Virus record (IMG/VR): IMGVR_UViG_3300027741_000123
Location: 1 to 43,457 of that record
Length of the DNA stretch: 43,457 nucleotides
From: a virus
Direction: 5' to 3' (one strand)
This document shows positions 1-43,457 of this stretch, in pieces. Below the pieces are notes generated by a model. That model was not told where the DNA came from and made no database searches. It saw only the letters and a program-made list of their open reading frames with translations. Both the position numbers and the translations under genes were made by a program. Numbering within the stretch: the stretch's first letter is position 1; each line of letters begins with the position of its first letter.

Positions 1-158
1 GTACCTGCAGCCATTTCAGGAGGCATAGAGGAAGGCGTCGGGGGTGGCCCTGCTAATCCGGGCATTTGTTGTGGTGCAGCAAATTGCCCTTGACCCGGAG
101 GTGGAGCCATCTGAGCTTGTTCAGCTTTCATTTCTGCATCGGCTTTAAGGATTGCTTG
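1..158. repeat. Terminal direct repeat, copy 1 (circular joint)
   Basis: Bases 1-158 match 43300-43457 except for one base: A at 32 against G at 43331. The repeat lies inside the portal gene, and joining the ends keeps that frame open, so it marks a circular or circularly permuted assembly rather than a gene duplication. The mismatch changes one portal codon (Ser in this copy, Pro in the other). Confidence 0.95.
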
Positions 159-1754
159 GACAAGATCAGGTTCTTTGCGTCGATATTTTTCGATTCGTGC
201 AAGATGAGTTACGGGGATTTGTCCCTGTGCCGCTTGATTAGCAAGACCTTGAAGTAAAGCTTCTTCGATTGTTTCTTCTTCAACTCGCGCTGACTCTGCA
301 TCAGGATCGTCAATGTATGGGTGACGCGAACGCAAAGTGTGGAGGCTAATTGCTTTCATGCCAAGCAATTGACCAAGTTGGATAGTTGTGCCTTGAACGT
401 CTGAACCGGGGATTGTGTAAGCAACAACGTTGTCTGTAGTTTCAATATGGACTGATGGAGTAAATTCAACTGTCCCTTTATCTCCGGGCCAGCCAGAAAA
501 CATAGAGTATTTTTTCTCAGGCCAATAAGTTTTATACTGTTCAAAGATAACAGTGTTGACATGTTCTAAAGCGACTTCCATTACTTCTTGCATTTCTTGT
601 ACGCGCGGGTCAACGGCAGTTCCCATCATGGAATCCATGCCTCGTCCTGTACGTAATGACCCGTAAGTTTCTCCACCGGCTTGTGGTACTAAACCTGTAC
701 CAATACGAACATTACGTTCAAGTCGGTCAATCATTTGTTGGGTATAGGGATCAGGGTTACCGGCTAATTCACCAATGTTCTTAGCATCAAGAACAATGTT
801 CATCTCACCGGTACGACCGTCTTTCCATTGACCACCAACCAACTGAGGAGTTTTGATTGAATCTCCAATAATGAAACGGTCACGGAAAATAGCTTTTTCT
901 CCAGCGGCAATAGCAAGTGCTTGAAGTTGTGCCATCAGATCGACTTGACCAGTGAGGTTAGCAATTTGAGAAATGATTTTGTCTAACGTGACACGTGCTG
1001 GAGTATAAACAGGGCAGATGCCGGTAGGATTAGGCCACCGTTTAAGTTCCATACTATGAACAATGGTGCCAGTTGAACCAAGTGTACGTTGCTCCCAATT
1101 GCGAGGCCCAAGAATTCCGATGACAGTCACTTCATCATCTACCCATTCAACTACATCCCACATTTCGGTTCCGGTATGAGAAATCTCTTTAATCCAACCT
1201 TGGGTTTCTGGATAATGTTCCCGCAACCAAATCGAAGATTTAGGATAAATGAACGCGCAATTCTTAGGTGGCGTAAGATCTTCCGGAGCTTTAGGTTCAG
1301 GATAAGAAGTTAAAGGATCACGTAATTCCAAACGCGGGTATCCAGTTTGAAAGTCAGGTACCACGATAAAAGAAGCAGTGGAATAACCAGCAAGATGTCG
1401 CATTGCACGGCGAAGATGCAATTTGGTTTTAGAATGATGATGAGTAGCCCCAAGAATTTTGCGACGAATAGCACCAAATTCACGGGAACGAACACCAACT
1501 TCTTTAGTCGAATCAATAGCAGGCGAATTCATATATGGCATCACACTCGCTGCGCGCATACCTAAAAAGTCAATTGCTTCTGCAATAAGTGCTGGAGTAG
1601 TTGGCGGCAAAACGTCAGAGTCTGTCTCTGACACATAAGGAAGAACCCAATCGGCATTGTAGCGCCGACGTACCTCAATCATTTTGCCAAGCAAAGCGCC
1701 ATTGTTCATCTGCCGATTGCGGCAAATCATGACAATTTGATCCCATGTAATCAT
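1..1754 (-). CDS. Portal protein (N-terminal 584 codons; continues at 43158-43457)
   Basis: Reading down from ATG at 1754 the frame is open to base 1. It continues without a break at 43299 and stops at 43158, giving a 631-residue protein. The portal forms the dodecameric DNA gate at the capsid vertex. I call it from its place directly after TerL (ATGA overlap), its length, and sequence content typical of actinophage portals: a long alpha/beta body with the GLVPQAGGETYGSLRTGR region near residue 410, then a charged helical segment and a low-complexity Pro/Gln/Met-rich tail. No catalytic motif is expected. A late structural neighbourhood supports the call. The alternative, another head-vertex protein, is less likely because no other portal-sized candidate exists. 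Confidence 0.8.
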   Translation of the reverse strand, partial: MITWDQIVMICRNRQMNNGALLGKMIEVRRRYNADWVLPYVSETDSDVLPPTTPALIAEAIDFLGMRAASVMPYMNSPAIDSTKEVGVRSREFGAIRRKILGATHHHSKTKLHLRRAMRHLAGYSTASFIVVPDFQTGYPRLELRDPLTSYPEPKAPEDLTPPKNCAFIYPKSSIWLREHYPETQGWIKEISHTGTEMWDVVEWVDDEVTVIGILGPRNWEQRTLGSTGTIVHSMELKRWPNPTGICPVYTPARVTLDKIISQIANLTGQVDLMAQLQALAIAAGEKAIFRDRFIIGDSIKTPQLVGGQWKDGRTGEMNIVLDAKNIGELAGNPDPYTQQMIDRLERNVRIGTGLVPQAGGETYGSLRTGRGMDSMMGTAVDPRVQEMQEVMEVALEHVNTVIFEQYKTYWPEKKYSMFSGWPGDKGTVEFTPSVHIETTDNVVAYTIPGSDVQGTTIQLGQLLGMKAISLHTLRSRHPYIDDPDAESARVEEETIEEALLQGLANQAAQGQIPVTHLARIEKYRRKEPDLVQAILKADAEMKAEQAQMAPPPGQGQFAAPQQMPGLAGPPPTPSSMPPEMAAG

Positions 1755-3496
1755 GAATACACTCCAATCGGAACAATTAATCCCGTATGCGTTGGGCGAT
1801 ACGGCATACCTGCAAAAGCAAATTGATCAGGACTAAAATGTTCTGACCCTCTTCGTTCCCTCCAAAGAATCCATCCAAACCATAATGCCATTAATCTGTC
1901 TTGACGTAAACGGGCGCCTTTAATATGAGGACGCCAACGTTTAAGTTGATTAATTGTTTCATCCATTAGATGACGAGTATAAACATCATCTGCATATGGA
2001 ATTTCAATTAACCCCAACCGGCAATCTCTTGCCATAGAAGCAATACCAATTTCTTCGTCATACTTATTATCACCCGTTAAATGGGATCTAATAGCAAAAC
2101 CAAAACGATCTTGCATTGCTAATAACTGTCGATCAGACGAAAGTCCTTTCTGAAAAGCATTGGCTTCGATAACAACATCTGTTACTGAAATACCATCGCC
2201 TACAAGCCGGAGAATCATTTCTTCAACCCGAGCAAACACCTGCTCATACGAAGTTAACTTTTGATCCTCATAAAGATCTACTAATTTAAGTTTACCATCA
2301 TGAAAGCAAAGACCTTCAACAACATTAAAACCACCAAGAGCAGGATCAAGAGTAACAACACCTACACCACCCGGAGCGCGATCTTTAATCTGTCGCACAG
2401 GATTACACATCATTGCCACATGTTCATCAGTAAATGTGCGATCGCCAGCAACCAAAGGATTCTGCATATAGTTACGCGCCCAAGCTGCCTCACCTACTTT
2501 CATGCGAGTACGATCCAGCATATCCATTGTGTAACCTGCACCAGTATCATCATCGTAAGGCCACAATGGTTCATGGTTACCAGAGAGTTCATTAAACACC
2601 ACCGCGGGTAGTTTAATAACCCTCATAACATCTACACCAAAGTTATCTATTAGCACTTCATAAAAATCTTGCTCGCCTACACGTGTTCCATTAATGGTAG
2701 TGCGACCACGTTCGCCCGGTCGTGACAACCAATCCTGCCGAAACACTTGAACAATTTTATTGGTTTGATTGTAATTCTTAAGAGACGTTACGTCGTCAAC
2801 GTGGAGATGGTCTGTACGTGTACCAGCAATAGCGCTGCCAATGCCAAGGCCAACCATAGAATAATCACGTTCGTCAAATGAACCTTTTTTGTACACAGAG
2901 AAATAATCTGCTTGCCAAGCTTGTGCAACCTTTTGTGCAGGCTGTGGTTCAAACGGACCCCACTTAGTAACGTACTCACGATACGGACCTCCCTGAGACA
3001 TACGCGATTTAACACGTGCAAGAATTTTACGAGACATTGGTTGTCCTTCAGAAGCAACCGTAAAACGAAATGAAGGATCAATCGCTAATTTGTAAGAAGC
3101 ATAATCTTCAAACAACGTAGTTTTACCATGTTCCGGAGGCCACAAAATCATTGTGATATTACCCGGAGGGGTATGTTCATAAGCATGAATGGCTTTGATA
3201 TGAAACCACGGCGAGTTCATCCCAAAATATTTTTTGCGAAACGCAGCAAAACCTTCCGACCACCCATCGGCAGCCGGAAGGTTTTCTGTATCTAACCGAA
3301 GCTCATCTACACGGTGAGCAAAATCTGGATATCGTTCACGCCAACGAGAATAAGTATTACGTGCAACACCAGCAGCAGCACACGCAACATCAATGCTGCG
3401 TTCTGCTTCAAACGATTCCATAAACGCTTGCCGACGTTTAATAGAAGACTTGCTTCTTGTCTCGTTTTGTTTAGCAAAAACTATAGGATCAGCCAT
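1751..3496 (-). CDS. terL: Terminase large subunit with N-terminal helix-turn-helix
   Basis: This 581-residue ATPase-nuclease packages DNA into the prohead. Visible motifs are an N-terminal homeodomain-like HTH at about residues 19-65 (AAAGVARNTYSRWRERYPDF), Walker A PPEHGKTT at 120-127, Walker B LHVDD at 231-235, and RNase H-fold nuclease acids D384 (TLDPALGG), E444 (VVIEAN) and D533 (RQDRLMALWF). It overlaps the portal start by four bases. No separate small terminase gene was found, and the HTH resembles the DNA-recognition domain of small terminases, so one protein may do both jobs (inference). The ATG at 3496 lacks an obvious Shine-Dalgarno sequence, and a small hairpin (3510-3524) lies just upstream. 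Confidence 0.95.
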   Translation of the reverse strand: MADPIVFAKQNETRSKSSIKRRQAFMESFEAERSIDVACAAAGVARNTYSRWRERYPDFAHRVDELRLDTENLPAADGWSEGFAAFRKKYFGMNSPWFHIKAIHAYEHTPPGNITMILWPPEHGKTTLFEDYASYKLAIDPSFRFTVASEGQPMSRKILARVKSRMSQGGPYREYVTKWGPFEPQPAQKVAQAWQADYFSVYKKGSFDERDYSMVGLGIGSAIAGTRTDHLHVDDVTSLKNYNQTNKIVQVFRQDWLSRPGERGRTTINGTRVGEQDFYEVLIDNFGVDVMRVIKLPAVVFNELSGNHEPLWPYDDDTGAGYTMDMLDRTRMKVGEAAWARNYMQNPLVAGDRTFTDEHVAMMCNPVRQIKDRAPGGVGVVTLDPALGGFNVVEGLCFHDGKLKLVDLYEDQKLTSYEQVFARVEEMILRLVGDGISVTDVVIEANAFQKGLSSDRQLLAMQDRFGFAIRSHLTGDNKYDEEIGIASMARDCRLGLIEIPYADDVYTRHLMDETINQLKRWRPHIKGARLRQDRLMALWFGWILWRERRGSEHFSPDQFAFAGMPYRPTHTGLIVPIGVYS

Positions 3497-3524
3497 GTAA
3501 GCACAAATGCTAACACGGAGTTAG

Positions 3525-3836
3525 TCATCCAGACGCCCTAAGCGAACCTTCAAAAGTTCCTGAAACTTTTTCATAGTAAATACCTTTTGGCGCACGAACA
3601 CCACCAGTTTCTTCGTTGACATTATAAAAGATATTCACAGATTCGCCAGCAGGAACAGAAACGGTTTCAAGCAAAACACCACTAGCCGTAGCCGTGTTAT
3701 TATCCCAAACCCTAATTACACCTACAACAACATCAGTATTGCGTACAGTTAAACCATAATAAGTAGCAGGCGTATCTTGAACAAGTAATGAACCTGCACT
3801 AATATTAAAAGATTTAACTGGAGAGCGGCTAGCCAT
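3525..3836 (-). CDS. Small beta-rich virion protein, unknown
   Basis: This 103-residue protein starts at ATG 3836 behind a GGAG box (ggagtttt-ATG). It is predicted to be mostly beta strand (alternating hydrophobics around TYYGLTVRNTDVVVGVIRVW and VSVPAGESVNIFYN), with no signal peptide or membrane segment. It lies immediately upstream of TerL in the late operon. A beta-sandwich decoration, head-fibre or spike protein would fit, but I do not recognise a family and the role is inference. Confidence 0.75.
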   Translation of the reverse strand: MASRSPVKSFNISAGSLLVQDTPATYYGLTVRNTDVVVGVIRVWDNNTATASGVLLETVSVPAGESVNIFYNVNEETGGVRAPKGIYYEKVSGTFEGSLRASG

Positions 3837-3847
3837 AAAACTCCTTA

Positions 3848-4297
3848 TTAGATAAAAAACATTCCGGCATGGTTCATATTCACTTCATTAGGACGACTGA
3901 TTTGCTGAACACCACGAACAACAGGCACAGCATCAGTATCAACAAACAAACGAAGCGTAACCCCATTGGTCCTATTGCCAATAACAAGACCTAAAACAAC
4001 ATCACCAGCAACAAGAGTGCCAGTAGGAATGTGAAGATCAGCAATCCGATTAATAGTTGCACGGTCTAAAACAAAAGAAACAAAATCACCAAATTTTACC
4101 TGATTTTCCGGCGCAACCACAACAACTTCAACCGGAACAACTTCCTCAATAGGTACATCAACCAAACTAGCAGCGGCGCGTAAAGCCGCCATTTCCACAT
4201 CAGAAGCTTCAGTTAATACCGGCTCTTCTAAAATAACACCAGCCGGAGGTTGCGCTTCAATAGGCTCCTCAACCTCAACATCTTTTTTAGGGGCCAT
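3848..4297 (-). CDS. Late structural-operon protein with acidic N-terminus, unknown
   Basis: This 149-residue protein is called from ATG at 4297, which overlaps the previous stop as TGATG. A TTG one codon earlier is the only alternative. The first 70 residues are acidic and Pro/Val/Glu-rich (EEVVPVEVVVVAPENQ), and the C-terminal 80 look like a compact beta domain (VKFGDFVSFVLDRATINRI, GTLVAGDVVLGLVIGNRT). No family was recognised. Its place before TerL suggests a head or packaging accessory protein. Confidence 0.7.
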   Translation of the reverse strand: MAPKKDVEVEEPIEAQPPAGVILEEPVLTEASDVEMAALRAAASLVDVPIEEVVPVEVVVVAPENQVKFGDFVSFVLDRATINRIADLHIPTGTLVAGDVVLGLVIGNRTNGVTLRLFVDTDAVPVVRGVQQISRPNEVNMNHAGMFFI

Positions 4298-4497
4298 CAA
4301 TAACCACCCATCGGCGAAGAAGGCATACCCATGCCGCCACCCATGCCACCCATACCGCCACCCATCGGAGGCATCGGAGGACGCATTGAAGGACGAGGCA
4401 TAGGCTTCTTAACCGCAGCCTTCTTAACAGCTTTCTTAGAAACAGCTTTCTTAACAGGTTTCTTAACCATTTTTTTCGCAGGTTTCTTAGCAGCCAT
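4297..4497 (-). CDS. Histone H1-like Lys/Ala/Pro protein with Gly-Met tail
   Basis: The 66-residue product has two halves. Residues 1-32 are repeated KK/PA/KKAV units like the tails of bacterial and eukaryotic H1-type DNA-compacting proteins. Residues 33-66 are Pro, Met and Gly only, with GGGMGGMGGG-type repeats. It begins with ATG in a TGATG overlap with the previous gene. A basic disordered protein in a late operon could bind packaged DNA or nucleate assembly, but this rests on composition alone. Confidence 0.7.
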   Translation of the reverse strand: MAAKKPAKKMVKKPVKKAVSKKAVKKAAVKKPMPRPSMRPPMPPMGGGMGGMGGGMGMPSSPMGGY

Positions 4498-4700
4498 CAG
4501 TACATACCCTTCTGCGACTTGGGATGCTTTGTTGCAGTTTGCATCCCACTACCACTAACACGACCGCCACCAGACGGTTTAGAATTAATATTTGTTGCAC
4601 ACGGATAACCAGCATTAATGCCTTTACCAGCAACAAACGAAGCAGAACGAGAAGGCGCACCTTTAGCAAAAAAATCTGTAGTATCCGGAACTTCACTCAT
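4497..4700 (-). CDS. Small Gly-rich late protein, paralogue of the 4697-4882 gene
   Basis: This 67-residue protein starts at ATG 4700 in an ATGA overlap. Its middle, GKGINAGYPCATNINSKPSG followed by GGRV, matches the neighbouring gene's GKGIN...NVNSKPTGGGRV. Both products are therefore copies of one short motif. No domain was recognised. It probably encodes a small structural or assembly peptide. Confidence 0.7.
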   Translation of the reverse strand: MSEVPDTTDFFAKGAPSRSASFVAGKGINAGYPCATNINSKPSGGGRVSGSGMQTATKHPKSQKGMY

Positions 4701-4882
4701 GACCAGCCTTTCATAGCATCAGAAACCTTGCCAGTACGACCAGCCTTACCCGCTTTAGGATGAGGATTCTCCGCATACACAAGAGCAGGCCCAACACGCC
4801 CACCACCAGTAGGTTTCGAATTAACATTCAAAGGCGAAGTAGACGGCCCCGGATTAATACCCTTACCAGAATAATTTTTCAT
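4697..4882 (-). CDS. First gene of the leftward late operon; small Gly-rich protein
   Basis: This 61-residue protein is called from ATG 4882. The frame stays open further upstream, but that stretch translates to a Cys/Val/Trp-rich string arising from GT-rich non-coding DNA, so I reject the longer form. It shares the GKGIN-x-NSKPxGGGRV motif with the next gene (4497-4700), which suggests a tandem duplication. No strong Shine-Dalgarno sequence is visible. It is the first gene downstream of the putative leftward promoter and terminator-like hairpin. Confidence 0.65.
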   Translation of the reverse strand: MKNYSGKGINPGPSTSPLNVNSKPTGGGRVGPALVYAENPHPKAGKAGRTGKVSDAMKGWS

Positions 4883-4931
4883 ATACACACAATACCACAC
4901 AACACACAAAAAACCTACACACCAAAAGAAG

Positions 4932-4963
4932 GAGCCTGCCCCCACACACATAGAGGCAGGCTC
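4932..4963 (-). terminator. Terminator-like hairpin in the late-operon leader
   Basis: GAGCCTGCC (4932-4940) and GGCAGGCTC (4955-4963) form a perfect 9-bp stem. Read on the minus strand the stem is followed by CTTCTTTTGG and, further on, a run of six T. It stands about 50 nt before the first late gene, so it could attenuate leftward transcription. It is not followed by T on the plus strand. Confidence 0.5.
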
Positions 4964-5042
4964 AACTTCCAACACGCACACACAAGCGCAAACAAAGCAT
5001 ACCACAATGAGCCAAGAACATGGTACCATTAAGAGACACACA

Positions 5043-5193
5043 TAGAAGCACCTCACCGGAGAGAGGCATACGTCCGGCATTGGCTAGCAACCAATGGTTC
5101 GCCCGTCAGAGGGGCTTCCATCATCACGCCCAGCTAAGTGGTGAATGTGTGAACCTACTACAACAGGTCGGGAGGACCCGGGGGGGATCTGTT
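5043..5193. ncRNA. Structured RNA candidate (cloverleaf-like, about 150 nt)
   Basis: No credible gene lies here, but nested helices can be drawn. GAAGC-A-CCTC (5045-5054) pairs with GAGG-G-GCTTC (5109-5118), closing a junction that holds CCGGA/TCCGG (5056-5060/5073-5077) and CATTGG/CCAATG (5078-5083/5091-5096). Then follow CATCATCAC/GTGGTGAATG (5119-5127/5138-5147, one bulge) and AACAGGTC/GATCTGTT (5162-5169/5186-5193). Two G-T wobbles would be A-C mismatches on the minus strand, which favours plus. The predicted leftward promoter just upstream would instead put it in the late-operon leader. The strand is unresolved. Confidence 0.5.
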
Positions 5194-5194
5194 A

Positions 5195-5375
5195 AAGACA
5201 CACACCCACAACCCCAACACACCAACAACAACCACCTGTTGTCACCGCACACCCAAACAAGCAATCTCACTATAAACAGACCCCCTAGTACTGTCACATC
5301 ACCCCCTCAACCCGCACGGTTTACGCCCAAAAAACAAAAAACAACCCTCCAACCACACCAAACCACACACAACGA
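5195..5375. other. C/A-rich, G-poor spacer in the divergent control region
   Basis: On the plus strand this stretch is almost all C and A with short ACACAC and CAACAA runs. At about 5375-5390 it flips abruptly to G/T-rich sequence. The flip coincides with the change of coding strand, as expected at a divergent transcription start or replication origin. I see no gene, and apart from the promoter at 5269-5297 no discrete site. Confidence 0.6.
5269..5297 (-). promoter_or_regulatory. Sigma70-like leftward promoter for the late operon
   Basis: On the minus strand GTGACA (5297-5292) and TATAGT (5274-5269) each differ from the bacterial -35 and -10 consensus by one base and are spaced by exactly 17 nt. 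Transcription would start near 5262 and give a leader of roughly 380 nt carrying the structured element at 5043-5193 and the hairpin at 4932-4963 before the first late gene. Confidence 0.5.
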
Positions 5376-5393
5376 TTAACGTTTGTTGCGGTT

Positions 5394-6090
5394 GTGATGG
5401 GTGTTTGTTGTGTTGGGGGAGGTGGTGGTGGCAGGCTTCTGTTGTGGGTAACGGTTGGTGGTGTTGCAGCGCCCATCACGGAGCCGAGGGCCAGGGCAAA
5501 CCAAGTTCGCCAACAAGTTGACTGAACTTGTTTACATGGCCTTCGTTCCGCGCTGTTCGCTTCCACGCTTCGATTCTGCGTCCTGCCGACTACCTTTCGG
5601 GACTCAGCGTGAAGGCTGGCGGATGAGAATCCGGCTTCCCTTGTGGGCGAACGATGGTCCCGAAACGGCAGGAACGTTCGCCACCCGCTGGGTGTCGAAC
5701 TCGCTGTGACCTTCGGACTGCGTTTGTCTGGGCGGTGTGCATTGGGGGTCCGAAGGCCACGGTCTAGCTTAGAGATCCCTGCGCTTATCCGCCGCTAGGG
5801 CAGAGGATTCTGATTTCGGCGGCGAGGCGCTACGTTTTTGGTTTCGGTTGGGCGTGTTGGGCTCAGGCGCACACCACCGAAATAACAATCCTCGTACCTG
5901 CTCGTGGAGAGAGTCCGACTATTTCCACAGCCCGTCGCAGGCTCCGGTGTGGAAATGCCGCCCTCCTTACCTACTCGCGACCCTAGACGGCGCGCACAGG
6001 AATCTCATCTTGGGTGGGGTAGTTCAGGTCGTAGCCGAGAGAGTCGGTTAAAGGCTTAACTGCAAACTACTAGAGGCGGATACCGCCGCA
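5394..6090 (+). ncRNA. Large ornate structured RNA candidate (about 700 nt)
   Basis: GC-rich, non-coding by composition, and full of complementary segments: GTGATGGG/CCCATCAC (5394-5401/5472-5479), GAGGGCCA/TGGCCTTC (5486-5493/5537-5544) enclosing AACAAGTT/AACTTGTT (5512-5519/5525-5532), 5611-5619/5631-5638, GGCGAACG/CGTTCGCC (5646-5653/5675-5682), a 13-bp helix with one mismatch (5706-5718/5748-5760), CCGCCG/CGGCGG (5789-5794/5817-5822), TTTCGGT/ACCGAAA (5842-5848/5876-5882), ATTTCCACA/TGTGGAAAT (5921-5929/5948-5956), AGCCGA/TCGGTT (6033-6038/6044-6049) and GGCGG/CCGCC (6075-6079/6083-6087). Wobble pairs fit the plus strand. Size, phage context and nearby tRNAs recall the GOLLD and ROOL classes, but membership is unproven. 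The ends are approximate. Confidence 0.65.
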
Positions 6091-6108
6091 TACATACAGG
6101 AGTAGGTT

Positions 6109-6777
6109 ATGAGCGCATTGTTGGAGGCTGGAAGCACCGAGGCAGGTAAGAAGGTGTGTAACACGTTTTTTCGGGAGATGTCGTTGGATGTTTCGGGTTT
6201 GCAGATGGTTGCAGGAACCGGACCGCGCAGTTTGGTGTTGGAGGATCGGTACACCCGTTGGGCGGCGAGCGAGGCGGTCCGGTTGGAGGTGCGGCGTCTG
6301 AAGATGCGGTACGCAGATCGGTTGGTCGTGGTTTCGGGCGGTGCCGAGGGTTTCGACGAGTTGTGGTTCAAGGTTGCGGCGGATGAGGGTGTGAAGACGG
6401 TGTTGTGCCTGCCATCACAGAGTGCGTCGTTCTACGCGTGGGGCCGGAAGGGGTCGTTGCTCGGTCGTGATCGGACGCCTCAGTTGCAGGCGATGTTGGA
6501 ACGAGCTTCGTTCCTCCCGATCTGGGTCGATCAGATCATCAAGGTTCAGCGTGAGGACGGAGTGTACGCGCTCGGTGGTGATGGGCCGTTCGTGGATTGG
6601 GAGCGTGGGACGTCGTTCTGGAAGCGGGAGAAGGGGACGGAACACATCAACATGATTCGGAACCGGTTCATGATTCAGATTGCGGATGGGTTTGAGGTGT
6701 TTGCGAGTGACACGCCGGGGACGCAGCATTGTCTCCGAGCGATCAAGCAGGCGAAGGTTCCGTATCGGTTCGTTTGA
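6109..6777 (+). CDS. SLOG-family (YspA/DprA-like) nucleotide-binding protein
   Basis: This 222-residue protein has a Rossmann-like SLOG core: a first strand ending in the glycine loop GTGPR (36-40) and the later VVVSGGAEGFDE motif (73-84) with a helix and strand after it (VKTVLCLPS). SLOG domains bind nucleotides or NAD-derived ligands and occur as sensors in several phage-defence systems, so a role in sensing or sequestering such a ligand is plausible but inferred. It starts at ATG 6109 with AGGAG six bases upstream. It directly follows the large RNA candidate and is GC-rich with GTG/CGG-heavy codons unlike the rest of the phage. Its stop codon begins the first hairpin element. Confidence 0.75.
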   Translation: MSALLEAGSTEAGKKVCNTFFREMSLDVSGLQMVAGTGPRSLVLEDRYTRWAASEAVRLEVRRLKMRYADRLVVVSGGAEGFDELWFKVAADEGVKTVLCLPSQSASFYAWGRKGSLLGRDRTPQLQAMLERASFLPIWVDQIIKVQREDGVYALGGDGPFVDWERGTSFWKREKGTEHINMIRNRFMIQIADGFEVFASDTPGTQHCLRAIKQAKVPYRFV

Positions 6778-6832
6778 GTCAATTTCAGGTGCATCCGGGC
6801 GTTGTCCGGGTGCATCTGGGGCTTTACTCAAA
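6773..6832 (+). promoter_or_regulatory. Intergenic RNA hairpin element, copy 1
   Basis: The outer stem TTTGAGT/ACTCAAA (6773-6779/6826-6832) includes the stop codon of the SLOG gene. The inner 15-bp stem is 6786-6800 paired with 6804-6818 around loop GTT, with three G-T wobbles that only pair on the plus strand. Copies 2 and 3 follow the next two genes. No T-run follows, so it is not a simple terminator. Confidence 0.8.
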
Positions 6833-6852
6833 CATATACAGGAGGCAGGAAG

Positions 6853-7242
6853 ATGCACCTTGCAACAGCAGGTCAAGCGCGTGTTTGGAACAAGCGGTTC
6901 GGTGATGCACCGAGTTCCGCGTTGTATGTTGGTCGGCCGTCGAAGTGGGGTAACCCGTTCCCGGTCACGAAGTGGCGGTCGACGAGCAGGGCGGTTCAGG
7001 AGTACGTCGATTGGTTGTTGTTCATGGATGGTGAACCAGAGGAGTTGCGTCAGTCGTTGATGGATGGCGAGCTGTCGGGGCAGGAGTTGGTGTGTTGGTG
7101 TGTGGATCGTGGCGGTGTTGGTGTGTGTCATGCGAAGGTGTTGGCGCGGGTTCAGGCGCAGTTTGAGACACCGGGGTGGACGCTGGCGGATGTGCGAGCG
7201 TATTGGTTGCACAAGTTGTCAAGAATTGGGTATTGGGCTTGA
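6853..7242 (+). CDS. DUF4326-family protein
   Basis: This 129-residue protein carries the DUF4326 signature: an N-terminal YVGRPSKWGNPF motif (about residues 27-38) and a C-terminal cysteine/histidine motif LVCWCVDR...GVCHAKVL. The family's biochemical function is unknown to me. The conserved Cys-x-Cys and Cys-His pair suggest a metal or nucleotide site (inference). The start is ATG 6853 behind AGGAGG. The longer reading from 6802 would run through the hairpin element and is rejected. It sits between two copies of that element and next to the SLOG gene, which suggests a joint function. Confidence 0.8.
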   Translation: MHLATAGQARVWNKRFGDAPSSALYVGRPSKWGNPFPVTKWRSTSRAVQEYVDWLLFMDGEPEELRQSLMDGELSGQELVCWCVDRGGVGVCHAKVLARVQAQFETPGWTLADVRAYWLHKLSRIGYWA

Positions 7243-7296
7243 GTCAATTTCAGGTGCATCTGAACGTCGTTCAGGTGCATCTGGGGCTTTACTCAA
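7239..7296 (+). promoter_or_regulatory. Intergenic RNA hairpin element, copy 2
   Basis: TTGAGT/ACTCAA (7239-7244/7291-7296) forms the outer stem and again contains the preceding stop codon. The inner 15-bp stem is 7251-7265 with 7269-7283 around loop GTC. Near the loop the arms differ from copy 1 on both sides (CTGAAC/GTTCAG against CCGGGC/GTCCGG), so pairing is kept by compensatory changes. Confidence 0.8.
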
Positions 7297-7318
7297 ACAC
7301 ACACAGGAGAAGACACAC

Positions 7319-7480
7319 ATGATGGTTCCGAAGTGGATGGAACGGCAGCAGGCGTGGGCGGAGGCGACGGGTCAGAAGTACGTGGACCTGTTGGACGCGC
7401 TTGATGAAGTCACAAGCTGGTGGTTCGACGAGCCGGGTGGTTGGTTCAAGCTCAAGGCAGCTCGTAGCAAGCGTAGTTGA
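7319..7480 (+). CDS. Small cassette protein, unknown
   Basis: This 53-residue protein starts at ATG 7319 (a second ATG follows at 7322) behind an AGGAGA box. It is Trp-rich (PKWMERQQAWAEA, SWWFDEPGGWF) with an amphipathic helix in the middle. There is no recognised family, membrane segment or cysteine. GC-rich codon use matches its cassette neighbours. It lies between hairpin elements 2 and 3. Confidence 0.7.
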   Translation: MMVPKWMERQQAWAEATGQKYVDLLDALDEVTSWWFDEPGGWFKLKAARSKRS

Positions 7481-7532
7481 GTGGATTTCGAGGGCATCCG
7501 GCGCGAGTCGGGTGCCTTCGGAGGCTAACTCA
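7478..7532 (+). promoter_or_regulatory. Intergenic RNA hairpin element, copy 3
   Basis: The primary sequence has diverged from copies 1 and 2 but the shape is kept. The outer TGAGT/ACTCA stem (7478-7482/7528-7532) starts at the preceding stop codon, and the inner 14-bp stem is 7489-7502 with 7507-7520, capped by a GCGA (GNRA) tetraloop. Three G-T pairs place it on the plus strand. It lies just before the Shine-Dalgarno sequence of the next gene. Confidence 0.75.
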
Positions 7533-7557
7533 GCCCAACACATACAAGGAGCAGCAC

Positions 7558-8232
7558 ATGTCAGAGGTACAGCAGGGCAGCAACAACCGGCAGGACATCT
7601 GGATGTACGGTGATCTGCAGAGTCGTATCAACATCCCGTGTCCGCAGACGGATTTCGGGCAGATGCAGTACAACAAGGCGATCCGTCGCAATCAGGTGGA
7701 CCGTCAGCTTGGTCTGTCGTACGTGAAGTTGGAGAACGAGATGCAACTGTTCTCGTTGTGGCTTCCGGAGAACCCGGTCGGAAAGCAGTTCATCACGATC
7801 ATGACGGACGCGACGCAGCGTGTGTTCATCGCAGGGAAGATGGCTCTCACGATCGAATCGGAGTTCGGGATGATCATCCCGCTCATGATGCCGGACCCAG
7901 ACCGACCAAAGATGACGATGGTCGCGGACGAAGCGTACATGGCAGAGAACCCCGACGCGGTACTGACCGGCAAGCACGATCTGGCTCACTGCAACGCAGA
8001 AGCCGTCGAAATCGTCAAGAAGGCGCGTGGCACTCGGGCGAAGGACGGGTGTTACCCGGAACGCCACTGCATCTCGTACTGCTACTGGCCGACGCTTCAG
8101 GAGTCCACTGACTTCATGAACGATGTGCGCGCAGCGATGCAGTACTACATCGAGCGTGCCATCTGGGCGGATGATCCCGCAGGTGCCATCATCAACGCCG
8201 AGCAGGACGAACACGAAAACATTTGGGCCTAG
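7558..8232 (+). CDS. Cassette protein of 224 residues, unknown
   Basis: It starts at ATG 7558 with AGGAG upstream; the upstream in-frame extension covers hairpin element 3 and is rejected. The N-terminal half is beta-rich (YVKLENEMQLFSLWLPEN, QFITIMTDATQRVFIAGKMA). The C-terminal half has a cluster HCNAE...GCYPERHCISYCYW that could bind metal, and an acidic tail. I recognise no family. It has the same GC-rich codon use as the three genes before it and is the last gene of the cassette, followed by two strong hairpins. Confidence 0.8.
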   Translation: MSEVQQGSNNRQDIWMYGDLQSRINIPCPQTDFGQMQYNKAIRRNQVDRQLGLSYVKLENEMQLFSLWLPENPVGKQFITIMTDATQRVFIAGKMALTIESEFGMIIPLMMPDPDRPKMTMVADEAYMAENPDAVLTGKHDLAHCNAEAVEIVKKARGTRAKDGCYPERHCISYCYWPTLQESTDFMNDVRAAMQYYIERAIWADDPAGAIINAEQDEHENIWA

Positions 8233-8239
8233 CGGCAAC

Positions 8240-8278
8240 CGGGTGGGGGTGCGCGCAAATCGCGCGTTCCCCCACCCG
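8240..8278 (+). terminator. Strong GC hairpin after the cassette
   Basis: CGGGTGGGGG (8240-8249) pairs with CCCCCACCCG (8269-8278). After one T-T mismatch the stem continues as GCGCGC/CGCGCGT around a short AT loop. It starts 8 bases after the last cassette stop. There is no T-run, so it may pause or stabilise rather than terminate. Confidence 0.6.
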
Positions 8279-8292
8279 CTCGCAGTGGTTCT

Positions 8293-8320
8293 GCTCGCAC
8301 CGGCATGGGCCGGTGCGAGC
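8293..8320 (+). terminator. Second perfect hairpin after the cassette
   Basis: GCTCGCACCGGC (8293-8304) and GCCGGTGCGAGC (8309-8320) form a perfect 12-bp stem with loop ATGG. It is followed by AAAATTAAAAG, not T, so on the plus strand it lacks a canonical tail. Together with 8240-8278 it marks the end of the GC-rich cassette. Confidence 0.6.
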
Positions 8321-8345
8321 AAAATTAAAAGTTGGTGCCGTGTAG

Positions 8346-8385
8346 GGAGGAACCGACTCGGTTAGACCCTCCAGACGGTGAGTCG
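8346..8385 (+). promoter_or_regulatory. Leader with two mutually exclusive hairpins
   Basis: GGAGG-AACCG-ACT-CGGTT with CCTCC (8346-8350 to 8368-8372) forms one nested hairpin. CGACTC (8354-8359) with GAGTCG (8380-8385) forms a competing one. It precedes the 47-residue gene by about 50 nt. Such a pair could act as a switch, but short stems can arise by chance. Confidence 0.35.
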
Positions 8386-8432
8386 TGTTTCCAGATAGTT
8401 AGTGTTGTTTCTATTTGATTGGAGTTTTTGGT

Positions 8433-8576
8433 ATGAATTCTGTTTGGTTGGCTAAGTTTCAGTTTTACACTGGGCAACTGAGTTCTGTGGTTGCACGTGT
8501 TCAGGTGTTGCTTGATGAGTTGGAGGAGTTTTGTGAGCAGTGTGGTCCAATGTGTATTTGTGAGGAGGTGGCGTGA
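8433..8576 (+). CDS. Small Cys-cluster protein, unknown
   Basis: This 47-residue protein starts at ATG 8433, eight bases after GGAG. An amphipathic helix (VVARVQVLLDELEEF) is followed by a cluster of four cysteines, CEQCGPMCIC, that could bind zinc. Its stop overlaps the next start as TGATG. GT-rich codons match the downstream early genes, not the GC-rich cassette. No family was recognised. Confidence 0.7.
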   Translation: MNSVWLAKFQFYTGQLSSVVARVQVLLDELEEFCEQCGPMCICEEVA

Positions 8577-8698
8577 TGTGGTTTGAGTTGGGGGAGTTGA
8601 CGTTGGAGTTGGATGTGCCGTGTGTGTTTTTGTTGTGTGTTTCTGTTGTTGCTGTTGTGTATATTCGTTCAATCAAAGGTGGTTGTGATGACAAGTAG
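8576..8698 (+). CDS. Single-pass membrane microprotein
   Basis: This 40-residue protein has one clear hydrophobic segment (VPCVFLLCVSVVAVVYI, about 14-30) followed by a positively charged RSIKGG tail, as expected of an N-out, C-in membrane peptide. It is coupled to the previous gene by TGATG and overlaps the next start. An early membrane peptide might alter the host envelope or exclude other phages (inference only). Confidence 0.6.
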   Translation: MWFELGELTLELDVPCVFLLCVSVVAVVYIRSIKGGCDDK

Positions 8699-8915
8699 TT
8701 TTGTGTTTGATTTTTCTAAGTGGAAGCCTCTTGATGTTGCTTCTCTTGATGATCCTGCGTATGATGCTGTGCGTGCGCAGTTTGAATCATTGTTGTGGTT
8801 GGTTCCTGCTGAGGTGTTGAGGAACTGGACTGAAGAGTTTGAAGTTGAGATGAAGTGGGCTGCTGGTAAAGCTGATCGTATGTGTCAAGATCATTGGGTT
8901 CGTGGTAAAAAGTAG
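8688..8915 (+). CDS. Early protein of 75 residues, unknown
   Basis: Called from ATG 8688 with AAAGGTGG seven bases upstream; the in-frame extension to 8613 covers the membrane microprotein and is rejected. Soluble and mostly helical, with several tryptophans (SLLWLVPAEVLRNWTEEFE, MKWAAGK). No family was recognised. It is the last gene before the RNA candidate at 8916-9130. Confidence 0.7.
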   Translation: MTSSFVFDFSKWKPLDVASLDDPAYDAVRAQFESLLWLVPAEVLRNWTEEFEVEMKWAAGKADRMCQDHWVRGKK

Positions 8916-9130
8916 TTGTCGTCTGAGCGACGTTAAATAGGCTTTAGGCTCAGAGCGTCCCCCGTTTGGGGGTGTAGCGTTGGAGGATCATCGACGGATG
9001 TGATTCCTGAACGCGGTTGGGGCGTGCCATCATCGTCAACCGTTAGCTTATAAGAGATGGTACTGGATCAGATTGATCGTCTGATTTGGGGGAAGACCGG
9101 CAAGTTGATCGCTTGTCGGTCTTTCTTTTT
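8916..9130 (+). ncRNA. Structured RNA candidate ending in an intrinsic terminator
   Basis: The stretch has no usable frame. Helices include TCTGAGC/GCTCAGA (8922-8928/8948-8954), CCCCC/GGGGG (8959-8963/8968-8972), CGTT plus GGATCA with TGATTCC plus AACG (8978-8990/9001-9013), and GTTG plus AACG arms with CAACCGTT (9010-9019/9037-9044), the last competing for AACG. It ends with a textbook terminator at 9093-9130. That architecture suits a phage small RNA or a structured leader. No known class was recognised. Confidence 0.5.
9093..9130 (+). terminator. Intrinsic terminator abutting tRNA-Lys
   Basis: AAGACCGGCAAG (9093-9104) pairs with CTTGTCGGTCTT (9112-9123) over 12 positions including one G-T wobble, followed by TCTTTTT. 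The T-run ends at 9130, and the first base of tRNA-Lys is 9131. Confidence 0.9.
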
Positions 9131-9203
9131 GCCCCTATAGCTCAGTTGGTAGAGCATCGGACTTTTAATCCGCTGGTCGCAGGTTCGATCCCTGCTGGGG
9201 GTA
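9131..9203 (+). tRNA. tRNA-Lys (TTT)
   Basis: A complete cloverleaf: acceptor GCCCCTA/TGGGGGT, D-arm GCTCAGTTGGTAGAGC, anticodon loop CTTTTAA with anticodon TTT, T-loop GTTCGATCC and discriminator A. CCA is not encoded. It reads AAA, a codon used heavily in the late genes. Confidence 0.95.
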
Positions 9204-9363
9204 CTTGTGTGTTGCGTGAAGATCAGTGAGCTAGCCATCTCCTGTTGTGGTGAAGATAAACCTGCGCACGGGTACTGCGTTAACAGTTTTTTCATTGGAC
9301 TGAAGGTTTTTCGCTCGCTGGTTTTCATGGAGTACATAACAAATAAGAAAGGTTGGTGTTGTT
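9204..9363 (+). other. Short non-coding gap after tRNA-Lys
   Basis: About 160 bases without a supported gene. It is likely leader sequence for the gene at 9364 and holds an AAAGG box near its end. I see no clear promoter, hairpin or repeat. Confidence 0.5.
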
Positions 9364-9705
9364 GTGCGTTATATGGGTCCGTATGAGAACATGATTGAGT
9401 TACGTAAGAAACATGAAGAGTCTGGTGGATTCTTTTTTAGTGAATCAACTATGAATTATTTTGCTTCAGAGATTTACCGTGATAATAGTTTGCGTGAAGT
9501 TGTTTTTTGGGGTAGATATTTTCTTACTTCTGAACAAGATTATGGTGGTGCTTGGAATGGTCAACGTCGTTGGACTATCCGTTTGTGTAAGAACAATGGT
9601 GACATTGAAACTTTTGGTTTGTTTGGTGGATATTTAACTTTTGATGATGCTTTTGAAGCTGTTGTTGGGTTGCAAGAAGATCAACATAAGGAGAACATAG
9701 AATGA
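9364..9705 (+). CDS. Small phage protein, DUF7447-like
   Basis: This 113-residue protein is called from GTG 9364, with AAAGG about eleven bases upstream. It has the pattern seen in a widespread actinophage family of unknown function: FFFSESTMNYFASEI, then a GRYFLTSEQ motif, a basic strand (RRWTIRLC) and an acidic helical tail with F-DAFEAV. The family name is from memory and not searched. It is soluble and an ATGA overlap joins it to the next gene. Confidence 0.7.
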   Translation: MRYMGPYENMIELRKKHEESGGFFFSESTMNYFASEIYRDNSLREVVFWGRYFLTSEQDYGGAWNGQRRWTIRLCKNNGDIETFGLFGGYLTFDDAFEAVVGLQEDQHKENIE

Positions 9706-9881
9706 GTTGGGGTTGGTGTGGCCGTTGTGGTGGAGAGTTAATTAGTTGCGAATGTGAAGAACTAATAGATGATGATGATTGTAATTATGATGCAGATGCT
9801 GATGATTATGAAGTTGTGAATGATTCACAAGTTGTAATGGAATACAATTCTGACGGTGCTATGAGAATTGTGGTTTTGTGA
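9702..9881 (+). CDS. Zinc-ribbon-like acidic microprotein
   Basis: This 59-residue protein starts at ATG 9702 (ATGA overlap, AAGGAG upstream). CGRCGGELISCEC near the N-terminus provides four cysteines as CxxC and CxC, followed by a run of aspartates. A small zinc-binding protein with an acidic tail fits, possibly a DNA mimic or adaptor (inference). Confidence 0.65.
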   Translation: MSWGWCGRCGGELISCECEELIDDDDCNYDADADDYEVVNDSQVVMEYNSDGAMRIVVL

Positions 9882-10051
9882 TGGCAAGTATGACTAGCGG
9901 AAATCATTTGACTGTGTTTGTTTTAGATTGGCGTGAAGCGCAGTTGCTTGAAACTGTGTTACTTGCTTTTCTTGCGCGTAAACCGGTCAATGATGAAGAG
10001 CTTGGGATGCATTGGGCTGTTGATGCTTTGTATAAAGAGTTTTTAGGGTGA
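9881..10051 (+). CDS. Early protein of 56 residues, unknown
   Basis: Starts at ATG 9881 in a TGATG overlap. It has a short beta strand (LTVFVLDW) and two helices (REAQLLETVLLAFLA, EELGMHWAVDALYKEFL). There are no motifs, and the next gene overlaps as GTGA. Confidence 0.65.
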   Translation: MASMTSGNHLTVFVLDWREAQLLETVLLAFLARKPVNDEELGMHWAVDALYKEFLG

Positions 10052-10221
10052 CAGTTATTTGTAATTCTTGCAATGATCGTGTTGCCCAGTACAAGTTTGT
10101 GTATCCGGATGCGACGTTTGATATTTGTGATAGCTGTTTACCTATTCATGGGTATGAACGTCAAATGATTAATTTAGGAGTTGGTGGTAATGTTAAGATA
10201 CAGAGTGCAAGACAGCGATGA
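10048..10221 (+). CDS. Zinc-finger microprotein
   Basis: This 57-residue protein starts at GTG 10048, coupled through GTGA. CNSC at residues 5-8 and CDSC at 27-30 form a probable four-cysteine zinc site, with FVYPDATFDI between them. It overlaps the next gene by 32 bases in another frame. It may be a small nucleic-acid-binding or adaptor protein. Confidence 0.65.
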   Translation: MTVICNSCNDRVAQYKFVYPDATFDICDSCLPIHGYERQMINLGVGGNVKIQSARQR

Positions 10222-10423
10222 TCCGAATGTGTGTTTGATTGAAATGCCTTATGACTTGTTAGATGCTGTTTATTCTGCTTTGTCTGATGTGATGATGAAA
10301 CGTATTGTTGACTTTCGTAAGTATGGTGATAAGCAACAGTCGTTAGATTATTTTGATTTGCATATTAGGATGACTGAGTTGATTCGTGAATGGGAAACTA
10401 ATACACGTAATCAACCGTTTTAA
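10190..10423 (+). CDS. Early protein of 77 residues, unknown
   Basis: ATG 10190 is chosen because TTAGGAG lies nine bases upstream; a TTG at 10181 would be too close to it. Mostly helical and rich in Asp and Tyr (PYDLLDAVYSALSDVMMKRI). No family was recognised. It is the last gene before the SSB leader. Confidence 0.7.
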   Translation: MLRYRVQDSDDPNVCLIEMPYDLLDAVYSALSDVMMKRIVDFRKYGDKQQSLDYFDLHIRMTELIREWETNTRNQPF

Positions 10424-10474: not shown

Positions 10475-10903
10475 ATGGCTGCTATTAATTCATGCACGCT
10501 AGTAGGTAATGTTACGCGTGATCCGGAGCTTCGGTTTACTCAAGCTGGATTGGCTGTTGCTAATTTCAGTATTGCTGTAAATCGTCGTTGGCAAAATCAG
10601 TTGACAAAAGAATGGGACGAGAAAGTTTCGTTCTTTGATGTGACATGTTGGCAGCAGTTAGCTGAAAATGTTGCTGAGTCTTTGACACGTGGTATGCGTG
10701 TTGTTGTTGCTGGTCGTCTTGAGCAGCGTTCGTGGGAGACTGACACTGGCGATAAGCGCAATAAGATTGAGATTGTTGCTGATCTTGTTGCGCCTTCATT
10801 GGAGTGGGCAACTGTTGTTGTAACAAAAAATGAGAAGCGCGATGGTGGCGTCGAAGATAAGAATTACAACTCATATACAAGTGCCGATGAGCGGCCTTTC
10901 TGA
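10475..10903 (+). CDS. ssb: Single-stranded DNA-binding protein
   Basis: This 142-residue OB-fold SSB coats single-stranded DNA during phage replication and recombination. It shows the family start NSCTLVGNVTRDPELRFT, the VANFSIAVNRRW strand, the FFDVTCWQQLAENV motif, the GMRVVVAGRLEQRSWE strand and an acidic tail ending DERPF, like the DDIPF-type tip that recruits partner proteins. The linker is short compared with cellular SSB. It starts at ATG 10475 with AGGAGG. It is the only clear replication protein in the genome. Confidence 0.97.
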   Translation: MAAINSCTLVGNVTRDPELRFTQAGLAVANFSIAVNRRWQNQLTKEWDEKVSFFDVTCWQQLAENVAESLTRGMRVVVAGRLEQRSWETDTGDKRNKIEIVADLVAPSLEWATVVVTKNEKRDGGVEDKNYNSYTSADERPF

Positions 10904-11867: not shown

Positions 11868-12869
11868 ATGCACGCACTAGAAATTGACCGTCAAGGTCGC
11901 GCATCGTTTTGTTATAACGAGAAAAATGGTAATCCTTGGCACATGTTGGGCGCACCGTTTGAGTCCGGGTTTACTCTTGAGCAAGGTCTTGAAGCTGCGC
12001 GTGTGCGTAAAGCGGAAAAGACTACGCTGTATGCTTTGACTCCGTTTGGTATGCAGGAAGTTGAGTCGCATAACGCAATTATTTGGCCTTCTGTTGATGA
12101 GCCTGATCGTTATGATGTGATTGGTGTTAATAGCCAGTCGTATCATCTTGTTCAGTATTCAGAGGTCGCTGAGATTGCGATGGCTATTGTTGGTGCTTCA
12201 TCTGGTGAAGCGATTCTTGACACTATGGGTTTGCTGCACGGTGGCAAGAAGTTCTTTGGTTTTATTGATTTTGGAGATATGGATCTTGAACTCCCGAATG
12301 GTGCAGTTGACAAGCTTGTTCGTGGTTTGGGATTCGTCTCTTCTCATGACAGCACACAGGCAATTACTTTTTATACCACGATGGTGAGGGCTGTGTGTCA
12401 GAACACTGTAACTGCTGGTCTGTCGTCCGCTAAGAACAAGATGTCGATTCGACATACTGCTAATGCCGATGCTCGTTTGTATCAGGCTCGTAGTCTTCTT
12501 GGTTTGGCGTATGGTGCTGACATTGAGTTCACTAAAATTGTGACTAAGCTGTCGGAGATGTCAGCTAAGCATGATACGCTTCAGCGTGTCATCAAGATGA
12601 TTTGGCCGTTGGAAGATGATGCACCGGATAGAGCTAAGACGATTTGGAATAATCGTGCCGATAAGATTCACAAACTTTGGTATGCTCCGTCTAATGCTGG
12701 TGGGTTTGGTGAGAATCGTTGGGTTGTTTACAACACGATTGGTGAGTATTTGGATCATGCGTATGGTTCTGATCCGATCAAGCGTGCAACAAATTCGATT
12801 GATCCCACTTCGTCAGTGACTAATAAAAAGCTGATGATGCTTGACTATCTTGTTGGTTCTTCTAACTAA
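11868..12869 (+). CDS. DUF932-family phage/plasmid protein
   Basis: A 333-residue member of the DUF932 (TIGR03299-like) group found in many phages and plasmids. It shows the family pattern PWHMLG near residue 24, YHLVQYSEVAEIA, the GKKFFGFIDFGD strand, AVCQNTV, and the helical MSIRHTANADARLYQAR region. Its biochemical role is unproven; it is commonly encoded beside recombination or single-strand annealing genes. Here it lies directly before the Cas4-like nuclease, probably as one recombination or replication unit. ATG 11868 follows AAGGAG. Confidence 0.85.
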   Translation: MHALEIDRQGRASFCYNEKNGNPWHMLGAPFESGFTLEQGLEAARVRKAEKTTLYALTPFGMQEVESHNAIIWPSVDEPDRYDVIGVNSQSYHLVQYSEVAEIAMAIVGASSGEAILDTMGLLHGGKKFFGFIDFGDMDLELPNGAVDKLVRGLGFVSSHDSTQAITFYTTMVRAVCQNTVTAGLSSAKNKMSIRHTANADARLYQARSLLGLAYGADIEFTKIVTKLSEMSAKHDTLQRVIKMIWPLEDDAPDRAKTIWNNRADKIHKLWYAPSNAGGFGENRWVVYNTIGEYLDHAYGSDPIKRATNSIDPTSSVTNKKLMMLDYLVGSSN

Positions 12870-13785: not shown

Positions 13786-14052
13786 TTGGATTTTCAAAAA
13801 CATGTTGTGTTCGATGCAAAGTACATTCTTCTTGATCAGCTTAGTGGTTTAATGACTGGTGCTGATTCGATTAATGATGTTGCTGAGATCATTGTGTTAA
13901 ATGATATTAATGAGATTGATGTGCTTGTTCCATCTGAATTGTTAGAGATGCGTATTTCTAAAGATTGGGATGACAAATATGTATATACTTGTACCGGTCT
14001 TGGAAACGTAGCCGCTAGTATTTGTTCGCTTGCTAATAACATAAAGATCTAG
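13786..14052 (+). CDS. Early protein of 88 residues, unknown
   Basis: No ATG is usable near the 5' end. TTG 13786 has AAGGAG about ten bases upstream, inside the end of the nuclease gene, so I take TTG. It has a helix-rich N-terminus (YILLDQLSGLMTGADS) and a strand-rich middle (EIIVLNDINEIDVLVP). There is no motif. Its stop codon begins the hairpin at 14050. Confidence 0.65.
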   Translation: MDFQKHVVFDAKYILLDQLSGLMTGADSINDVAEIIVLNDINEIDVLVPSELLEMRISKDWDDKYVYTCTGLGNVAASICSLANNIKI

Positions 14053-14127
14053 CCAATCAAAGAACCGCCTCTTTGATTTGGCTATCGCTGGGCTAGGGGT
14101 TCCGCCGCCCCTAGCCCAGCATTTTCT
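14050..14127 (+). terminator. Twin hairpin terminator
   Basis: The first hairpin pairs 14050-14063 with 14070-14084 (14 bp with one bulged T) and starts at the stop codon. The second is GCTGGGCTAGGGG (14087-14099) with CCCCTAGCCCAGC (14108-14120), a perfect 13 bp, followed by ATTTTCT. The second looks like a working intrinsic terminator separating the replication genes from the next block. Confidence 0.85.
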
Positions 14128-43161: not shown

Positions 43162-43457
43162 TGTGGTCCTCCTTGCGGCGCTGCCCCTTGAGGCGGCCCT
43201 TGTTGAGCAAGAGCTTGTAACAACGCGGCCATATCAGGTTTGCCTTGTCCTTGTGGTGGCCCACTAGACGGCATTGGTGCGCCTTGTCCTCCTCCAGCCG
43301 TACCTGCAGCCATTTCAGGAGGCATAGAGGGAGGCGTCGGGGGTGGCCCTGCTAATCCGGGCATTTGTTGTGGTGCAGCAAATTGCCCTTGACCCGGAGG
43401 TGGAGCCATCTGAGCTTGTTCAGCTTTCATTTCTGCATCGGCTTTAAGGATTGCTTG
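43158..43457 (-). CDS. Portal protein, C-terminal part (continues from base 1 side)
   Basis: The frame enters from the window end and stops at TGA 43158. It is the last 100 codons of the portal gene whose start is at 1754; 53 of them are repeated in the copy at 1-158. The segment is low complexity, rich in Pro, Gln, Gly and Met (PPPGQGQFAAPQQMPG, ALLQALAQQGPPQG). Such tails on portals are usually disordered. Confidence 0.85.
   Translation of the reverse strand, partial: QAILKADAEMKAEQAQMAPPPGQGQFAAPQQMPGLAGPPPTPPSMPPEMAAGTAGGGQGAPMPSSGPPQGQGKPDMAALLQALAQQGPPQGAAPQGGPQ
43300..43457. repeat. Terminal direct repeat, copy 2
   Basis: Matches bases 1-158 except G at 43331 where copy 1 has A at 32. 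It marks the closing point of the circular assembly. Confidence 0.95.

Follow-up and report, generated by a model that had tools for sequence, protein, structure and literature searches.

Why does each of three consecutive genes in a phage genome end in an RNA hairpin, and what might such hairpins do for the message that carries them? We analyzed 43,457 bases of DNA, hereafter the window, which make up an entire virus record. Its ends carry a direct repeat of about 158 bases (positions 1-158 and 43300-43457), and over this common stretch of about 158 bases both ends align to L050, an independent contig; given that the terminal repeat is backed by this second contig, the viral genome is probably complete. 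Distant relatives of one of its genes (11868-12869; about 27-29% identity) occur mostly in actinobacteriophages. The genes next to the hairpins are all on the plus strand. Gene 1 (6109-6777, 222 aa) is SLOG-like, with weak matches to the Pfam families YAcAr and DNA_processg_A, both under the curated cut-off, and gene 2 (6853-7242, 129 aa) encodes a DUF4326 protein (PF14216, E 4.7e-17). Gene 3 (7319-7480, 53 aa), whose small product has a basic C-terminus, and gene 4 (7558-8232, 224 aa) have no assigned function. We found no relatives of genes 1 and 4 in phage records, and the matches of gene 2 there, at less than 60% identity, fit DUF4326 alone.

A preliminary description had placed hairpins at 6773-6832, 7239-7296 and 7478-7532 on the plus strand, and all three are present and far above chance. 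Hairpin 1 (6775-6830) lies between genes 1 and 2, hairpin 2 (7240-7295) between genes 2 and 3, and hairpin 3 (7478-7532) between genes 3 and 4, each starting with the TGA stop codon of the gene before it. The first two are capped by triloops (GUU and GUC) and the third by the tetraloop GCGA, which bears out the GNRA loop reported for it. Their minimum free energies are -34.5, -30.3 and -35.4 kcal/mol (z = -7.5, -7.4 and -6.6), and for each hairpin none of 200 dinucleotide shuffles was as stable. In sliding windows over the surrounding region, gene bodies gave z of about 0, while the hairpin-containing spacers fell to between -4.5 and -5.6 on the plus strand. The predicted inner helix is 16-18 bp long with a common core of 15 bp, such that the 14-15 bp first proposed describes the core but falls short of the full predicted fold. 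With the outer stem of 5-8 bp, the helix comes to about 22-25 bp, a length sufficient for a double-strand nuclease.

A hairpin-pattern search of viral contigs yielded one true relative, IMGVR_UViG_3300037189_016918 (12,150 bases; hereafter L009). The two phages share a backbone that is 80% identical over window positions 2-5449 and includes a 581-aa protein, probably the terminase, that is 96% identical; on the other flank, window positions 8610-9220 are 73% identical to L009. Between these flanks lies a GC-rich island (5450-8610; 57% GC) in which DNA alignment to L009 fails except at hairpin 3. The corresponding island of L009 (9102-11537) is likewise GC-rich (59%), against 42-44% GC outside the islands in both phages. 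Genes for SLOG and DUF4326 proteins are absent from the island of L009, itself a 12-kb fragment, and homologues of gene 3 (L009 10421-10588; 35% amino acid and 55% DNA identity) and gene 4 (L009 10681-11295; 28% and 48%) are present. When we searched for further relatives with the terminase, we recovered only L009 and a 5.6-kb contig that ends short of the island.

Two more observations concern the edges of the island. Just outside it, where left- and right-going genes diverge, a block of about 150 bases (window 5044-5196, L009 8683-8850) is nearly identical in the two phages, well beyond the 80% of the backbone, and it is no more structured than shuffled sequence. On the other side, a Pistol self-cleaving ribozyme (8917-8979, 60.4 bits) is shortly followed by a tRNA-Lys gene (9131-9203), and this pair is present in L009 too.

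L009 carries two hairpins of the same kind: copy A (10331-10387), before the gene 3 homologue, and copy B (10586-10640), between the homologues of genes 3 and 4, both with UUCG loops. The gene 3 homologues therefore sit between two hairpins in both phages, and all five copies are more stable than expected by chance. We built a hairpin model, R1, from the five copies, and these score 69-79 bits against it (79.4, 76.6 and 70.3 for hairpins 1, 2 and 3). The stems start at or just after each stop codon and finish near the next Shine-Dalgarno site, which they leave uncovered. Fusion of the stop codon to a TGAGT/ACTCA outer stem, described for the window, holds in all three copies there and breaks down in L009 copy A, where a TAG stop lies outside the stem; as four of the five copies include the stop codon in the outer stem, fusion is the norm but not obligatory. 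A leader text had been described as common to the hairpins. In the window, the leader ACATACAGGAG is also found ahead of gene 1, a gene with no R1-family hairpin upstream, and while the window leaders resemble ACAUACAGGAG, those of L009 differ. We rejected it as part of the hairpin element on the grounds that it is not conserved in L009; it is an ordinary Shine-Dalgarno leader outside the conserved element.

Judged from these alignments, the hairpins themselves are preserved as the surrounding genes differ almost completely. Hairpin 3 and copy B are 85% identical over 61 bases, the only stretch of the islands that blastn could align, and the best 55-mer match between the islands (47 of 55) falls in this hairpin, compared to 36 of 55 for the next best and 31-32 in shuffles. 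Given the 55% and 48% DNA identity of the neighboring genes, this hairpin has been preserved far better than its surroundings, and its structure is conserved at the homologous locus, between the gene 3 and gene 4 homologues. Within the window, a single gene separates hairpins 1 and 2, which share 89% identity with each other and 64-68% with hairpin 3.

The differences among copies also respect pairing. Near the loop, hairpins 1 and 2 are separated by three paired changes (C-G to U-A, G-C to A-U and G-U to A-U), each retaining the pair, as the preliminary description had noticed. In the alignment of all five copies, 99% of pair cells hold standard pairs, five pairs are altered on both sides, and one mid-stem pair is seen as G-C, U-A and C-G; when partners were slid by 1-3 columns, zero double changes were found. 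The covariation score was not reached in any of 500 shuffles, in a small alignment of five copies from two related phages, where the kinship of copies inflates such scores. We therefore regard the covariation evidence for kept pairing as strong but not final, and the proposal of a selected RNA structure is strengthened by the two L009 copies and the double-changed pairs. Since each copy contains four to five G-U pairs, only the mRNA strand folds well (about -31 to -42 kcal/mol, versus -20 to -27 for the antisense strand), and this preference is what one expects of an mRNA element rather than of a DNA palindrome or operator. We also considered whether the G-U pairs are specially protected and rejected this: in hairpin 1, three of five G-U pairs are invariant compared to eight of 15 Watson-Crick pairs, and because their conservation is no higher than that of other pairs, we excluded it as evidence for a specific binder.

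The conserved part of the hairpin is its middle and lower stem. All five copies retain the mid-stem GCAUCYG / RGGUGC amid other pairs that co-vary, whereas the five loops (GUU, GUC, GCGA, UUCG and UUCG) are of four different kinds, three of the five being stable GNRA or UUCG tetraloops. Recognition by the loop was rejected on this basis. Given that the loops are exchangeable, selection appears to act on the stem, and their variability argues that helix stability is needed, or that a factor or nuclease reads the stem. The conservation of GCAUC and GGUGC beyond the needs of stability could reflect either a specific partner or recent shared ancestry.

So far, our searches place the R1 family in two phages only. 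Rfam returned nothing over the hairpins at gathering score or at E values up to 5, and outside its source copies the R1 model scored 14-28 bits at best. A loose hairpin pattern found 38 stretches in IMG/VR, of which L009 was the sole true one (L010, L011 and L012 were rejected as chance matches). Across GTDB genomes, a strict pattern gave zero matches and a loose pattern matched at least 120 stretches; among the matches listed none was convincing by fold, and none of the first 80 was by R1. Four matches of 26-28 bits from 396 genomes of one phylum were judged to be ordinary hairpins. BLAST against phage and plasmid records gave nothing meaningful. Some of the collections searched may omit very near relatives.

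We consider gene-end mRNA processing or 3' protection the most likely role of the hairpins, with belief and doubt about equally weighted. On this view, a single cis-acting RNA element recurs along the polycistronic message of a variable phage island, and each copy closes a cistron at its 3' end. After the ribosome departs from the stop codon, the outer stem would zip onto the stable inner helix, at which, or at whose edge, an RNase III-type double-strand nuclease could then cut. Alternatively, the cut may fall in the A-rich linker downstream of the helix, or the helix may merely block 3'-to-5' exonucleases. In each case every cistron would act as a separate message served by a Shine-Dalgarno site of its own. 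The sequences show the structure, its conservation in both phages, the covariation, the preference for the mRNA strand and the placement ahead of the next ribosome-binding site; cleavage or protection, and the nuclease, are what we infer from them.

The anatomy of the hairpins fits such RNase III-type processing or mRNA stabilization. Exchangeable loops, three of five of them stable tetraloops, suit the need for a stable helix. Spacing lends further support to a role at gene ends, since the island genes of the window are separated by spacers of 75-77 nt (92-94 nt in L009) that are taken up by a hairpin and a Shine-Dalgarno site, whereas right-going genes of the backbone mostly lie -4 to +9 nt apart, overlapping or almost abutting. 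The G-U pairs, which lower stability, count against processing or protection, as do the mid-stem conservation in excess of what stability demands and the small set of five copies from two related phages, and the lower stem is shorter than in the RNase III sites of T7. Two strong adjacent hairpins outside the R1 family follow gene 4 (8241-8320, -61.6 kcal/mol), and a second very strong adjacent pair, also outside it, lies at 14046-14125 (-48.3 kcal/mol); both pairs are probably operon ends. We rejected stop-codon readthrough as a general function: it is open only after hairpin 1, into gene 2, and in-frame stops occur soon after hairpins 2 and 3.

Alternatively, the hairpins may be operators, at which a phage or host RNA-binding protein would read the conserved mid-stem and control translation of the downstream gene. 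The conserved mid-stem amid co-varying pairs is consistent with this reading, as are the reach of the stem from the stop to near the next Shine-Dalgarno site and the presence, between hairpins in both phages, of a gene for a small protein with a basic C-terminus. However, the loop, which is the usual point of recognition in known phage operators, is not conserved, and the Shine-Dalgarno site is not covered. The SLOG and DUF4326 proteins, proposed initially as binders, lose ground as candidates, given that the L009 fragment has two hairpins and neither gene in its island, and an AlphaFold model for the gene 4 pair was unusable (pLDDT 29.9). We therefore hold operators to be possible but doubtful.

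It is also conceivable, if unlikely, that the hairpins are translational insulators that keep a terminating ribosome from sliding to the next start and thus leave cistrons independent. The stop codon is part of the outer stem in four of five copies, and hairpins separate the island genes while many backbone genes overlap, but the stop codon of L009 copy A stands outside the stem. We judge it quite improbable that the hairpins are boundary or recombination modules, flanking genes for cassette exchange as do the promoter-stem-loop modules that T4-type phages carry. In favor of this, hairpins 1 and 2 are nearly alike with one gene between them, and the two islands share hairpins but differ in gene content; yet the identity of hairpin 3 to the other two offers little for homologous recombination, compensatory changes point to selection on RNA pairing that recombination does not need, and a sigma-70-like promoter scan of the three spacers, with phage- or host-specific promoters outside its scope, gave zero matches. 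Transcription terminators or attenuators are very unlikely: the hairpins are strong, GC-rich and at gene ends, but a T-run is missing (the sequence after stem 1 is AACAUAUACAGG), a terminator scan reported none of the three, and the genes are co-directional with no promoter-like match between them. Although the DNA also carries imperfect palindromes, chance or DNA-level inverted repeats, such as DNA-binding operators, are strongly disfavored by the shuffles, the covariation and the strand preference of the G-U pairs.

The hairpins adjoin a long, apparently noncoding region that is highly structured in L009, matches no Rfam family, and merits its own study. In L009, about 820 nt that lead from the backbone to the first gene of the island (9290-10110) fold at -412 kcal/mol compared to -306 for shuffles (z of about -14 on both strands), contain neither a convincing gene nor a credible Rfam match, and carry a repeated hairpin motif, ACGATGAGACTGT, at 9761 and 9901. 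Its counterpart in the window (5421-6095), alignable at the 5' edge only, is weaker, with z of -3.6 and -5.0 where a coding control reached -3.6. This GC-rich stretch of L009 may be a large ornate RNA of a new kind. Like GOLLD and ROOL (PMC12286853), it is a long, ornate RNA-like stretch of phage sequence that has a tRNA gene about 2 kb downstream, although neither family matched it. A broader reading, which we think improbable, is that the island is an RNA-centered exchangeable module in which a long structured noncoding RNA precedes small genes split by a conserved stem element, read by its stem and not its loop by a phage or host factor, with the product of gene 3 or 4 as that factor. If so, the hairpins would supply the cis-acting half of a new system of post-transcriptional control, one that outlasts gene replacement.

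This adjacent region may outweigh the hairpins in importance. The hairpins are an element of phage RNA that endures longer than its neighboring genes, at 85% identity beside proteins at 28-35% and with pairing kept by double changes, and they lend themselves to clean tests of how phages mark or protect the ends of genes within long messages.

Several known systems share features with these hairpins. Cluster K mycobacteriophages carry SAS/ESAS elements, repeated inverted repeats found just before the starts of some non-structural genes, in which differences between the ESAS arms generally do not support RNA pairing, such that the authors prefer DNA-binding sites (PMC3203893). Our hairpins are likewise repeated inverted repeats upstream of gene starts, but their pairing is maintained by compensatory changes, and the conserved 13-bp start sequence GGGATAGGAGCCC is absent. 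The 17-bp dyad repeats of Cluster O mycobacteriophages (PMC4351075) are also repeated and often intergenic; unlike the hairpins, they have invariant 7-bp arms, number more than 30 copies and occur within genes as well.

Compared with the PeSL of T4-type phages, which are mobile regulatory cassettes, the hairpins are similarly stem-loop units between shuffled small genes, but here selection falls on RNA pairing and the spacers gave no sigma-70-like match, phage- or host-specific promoters being outside that scan. Enterobacterial REP-type palindromes are intercistronic and stabilize mRNA, and our gene-end hairpins could in principle block 3' exonucleases in the same way, although they are confined to a phage island. 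By analogy, the nearest in kind are the RNase III processing hairpins between the early genes of T7. The hairpins described here differ in their longer upper and shorter lower stem, in the stop codon within the stem and in their conserved stem sequence. Yet both are intercistronic elements of phage polycistronic mRNA, placed between a stop codon and the next ribosome-binding site, both have two stems parted by an asymmetric bulged region, and the predicted helices here attain the double-stranded length of about 20 bp or more that characterizes the T7 sites.
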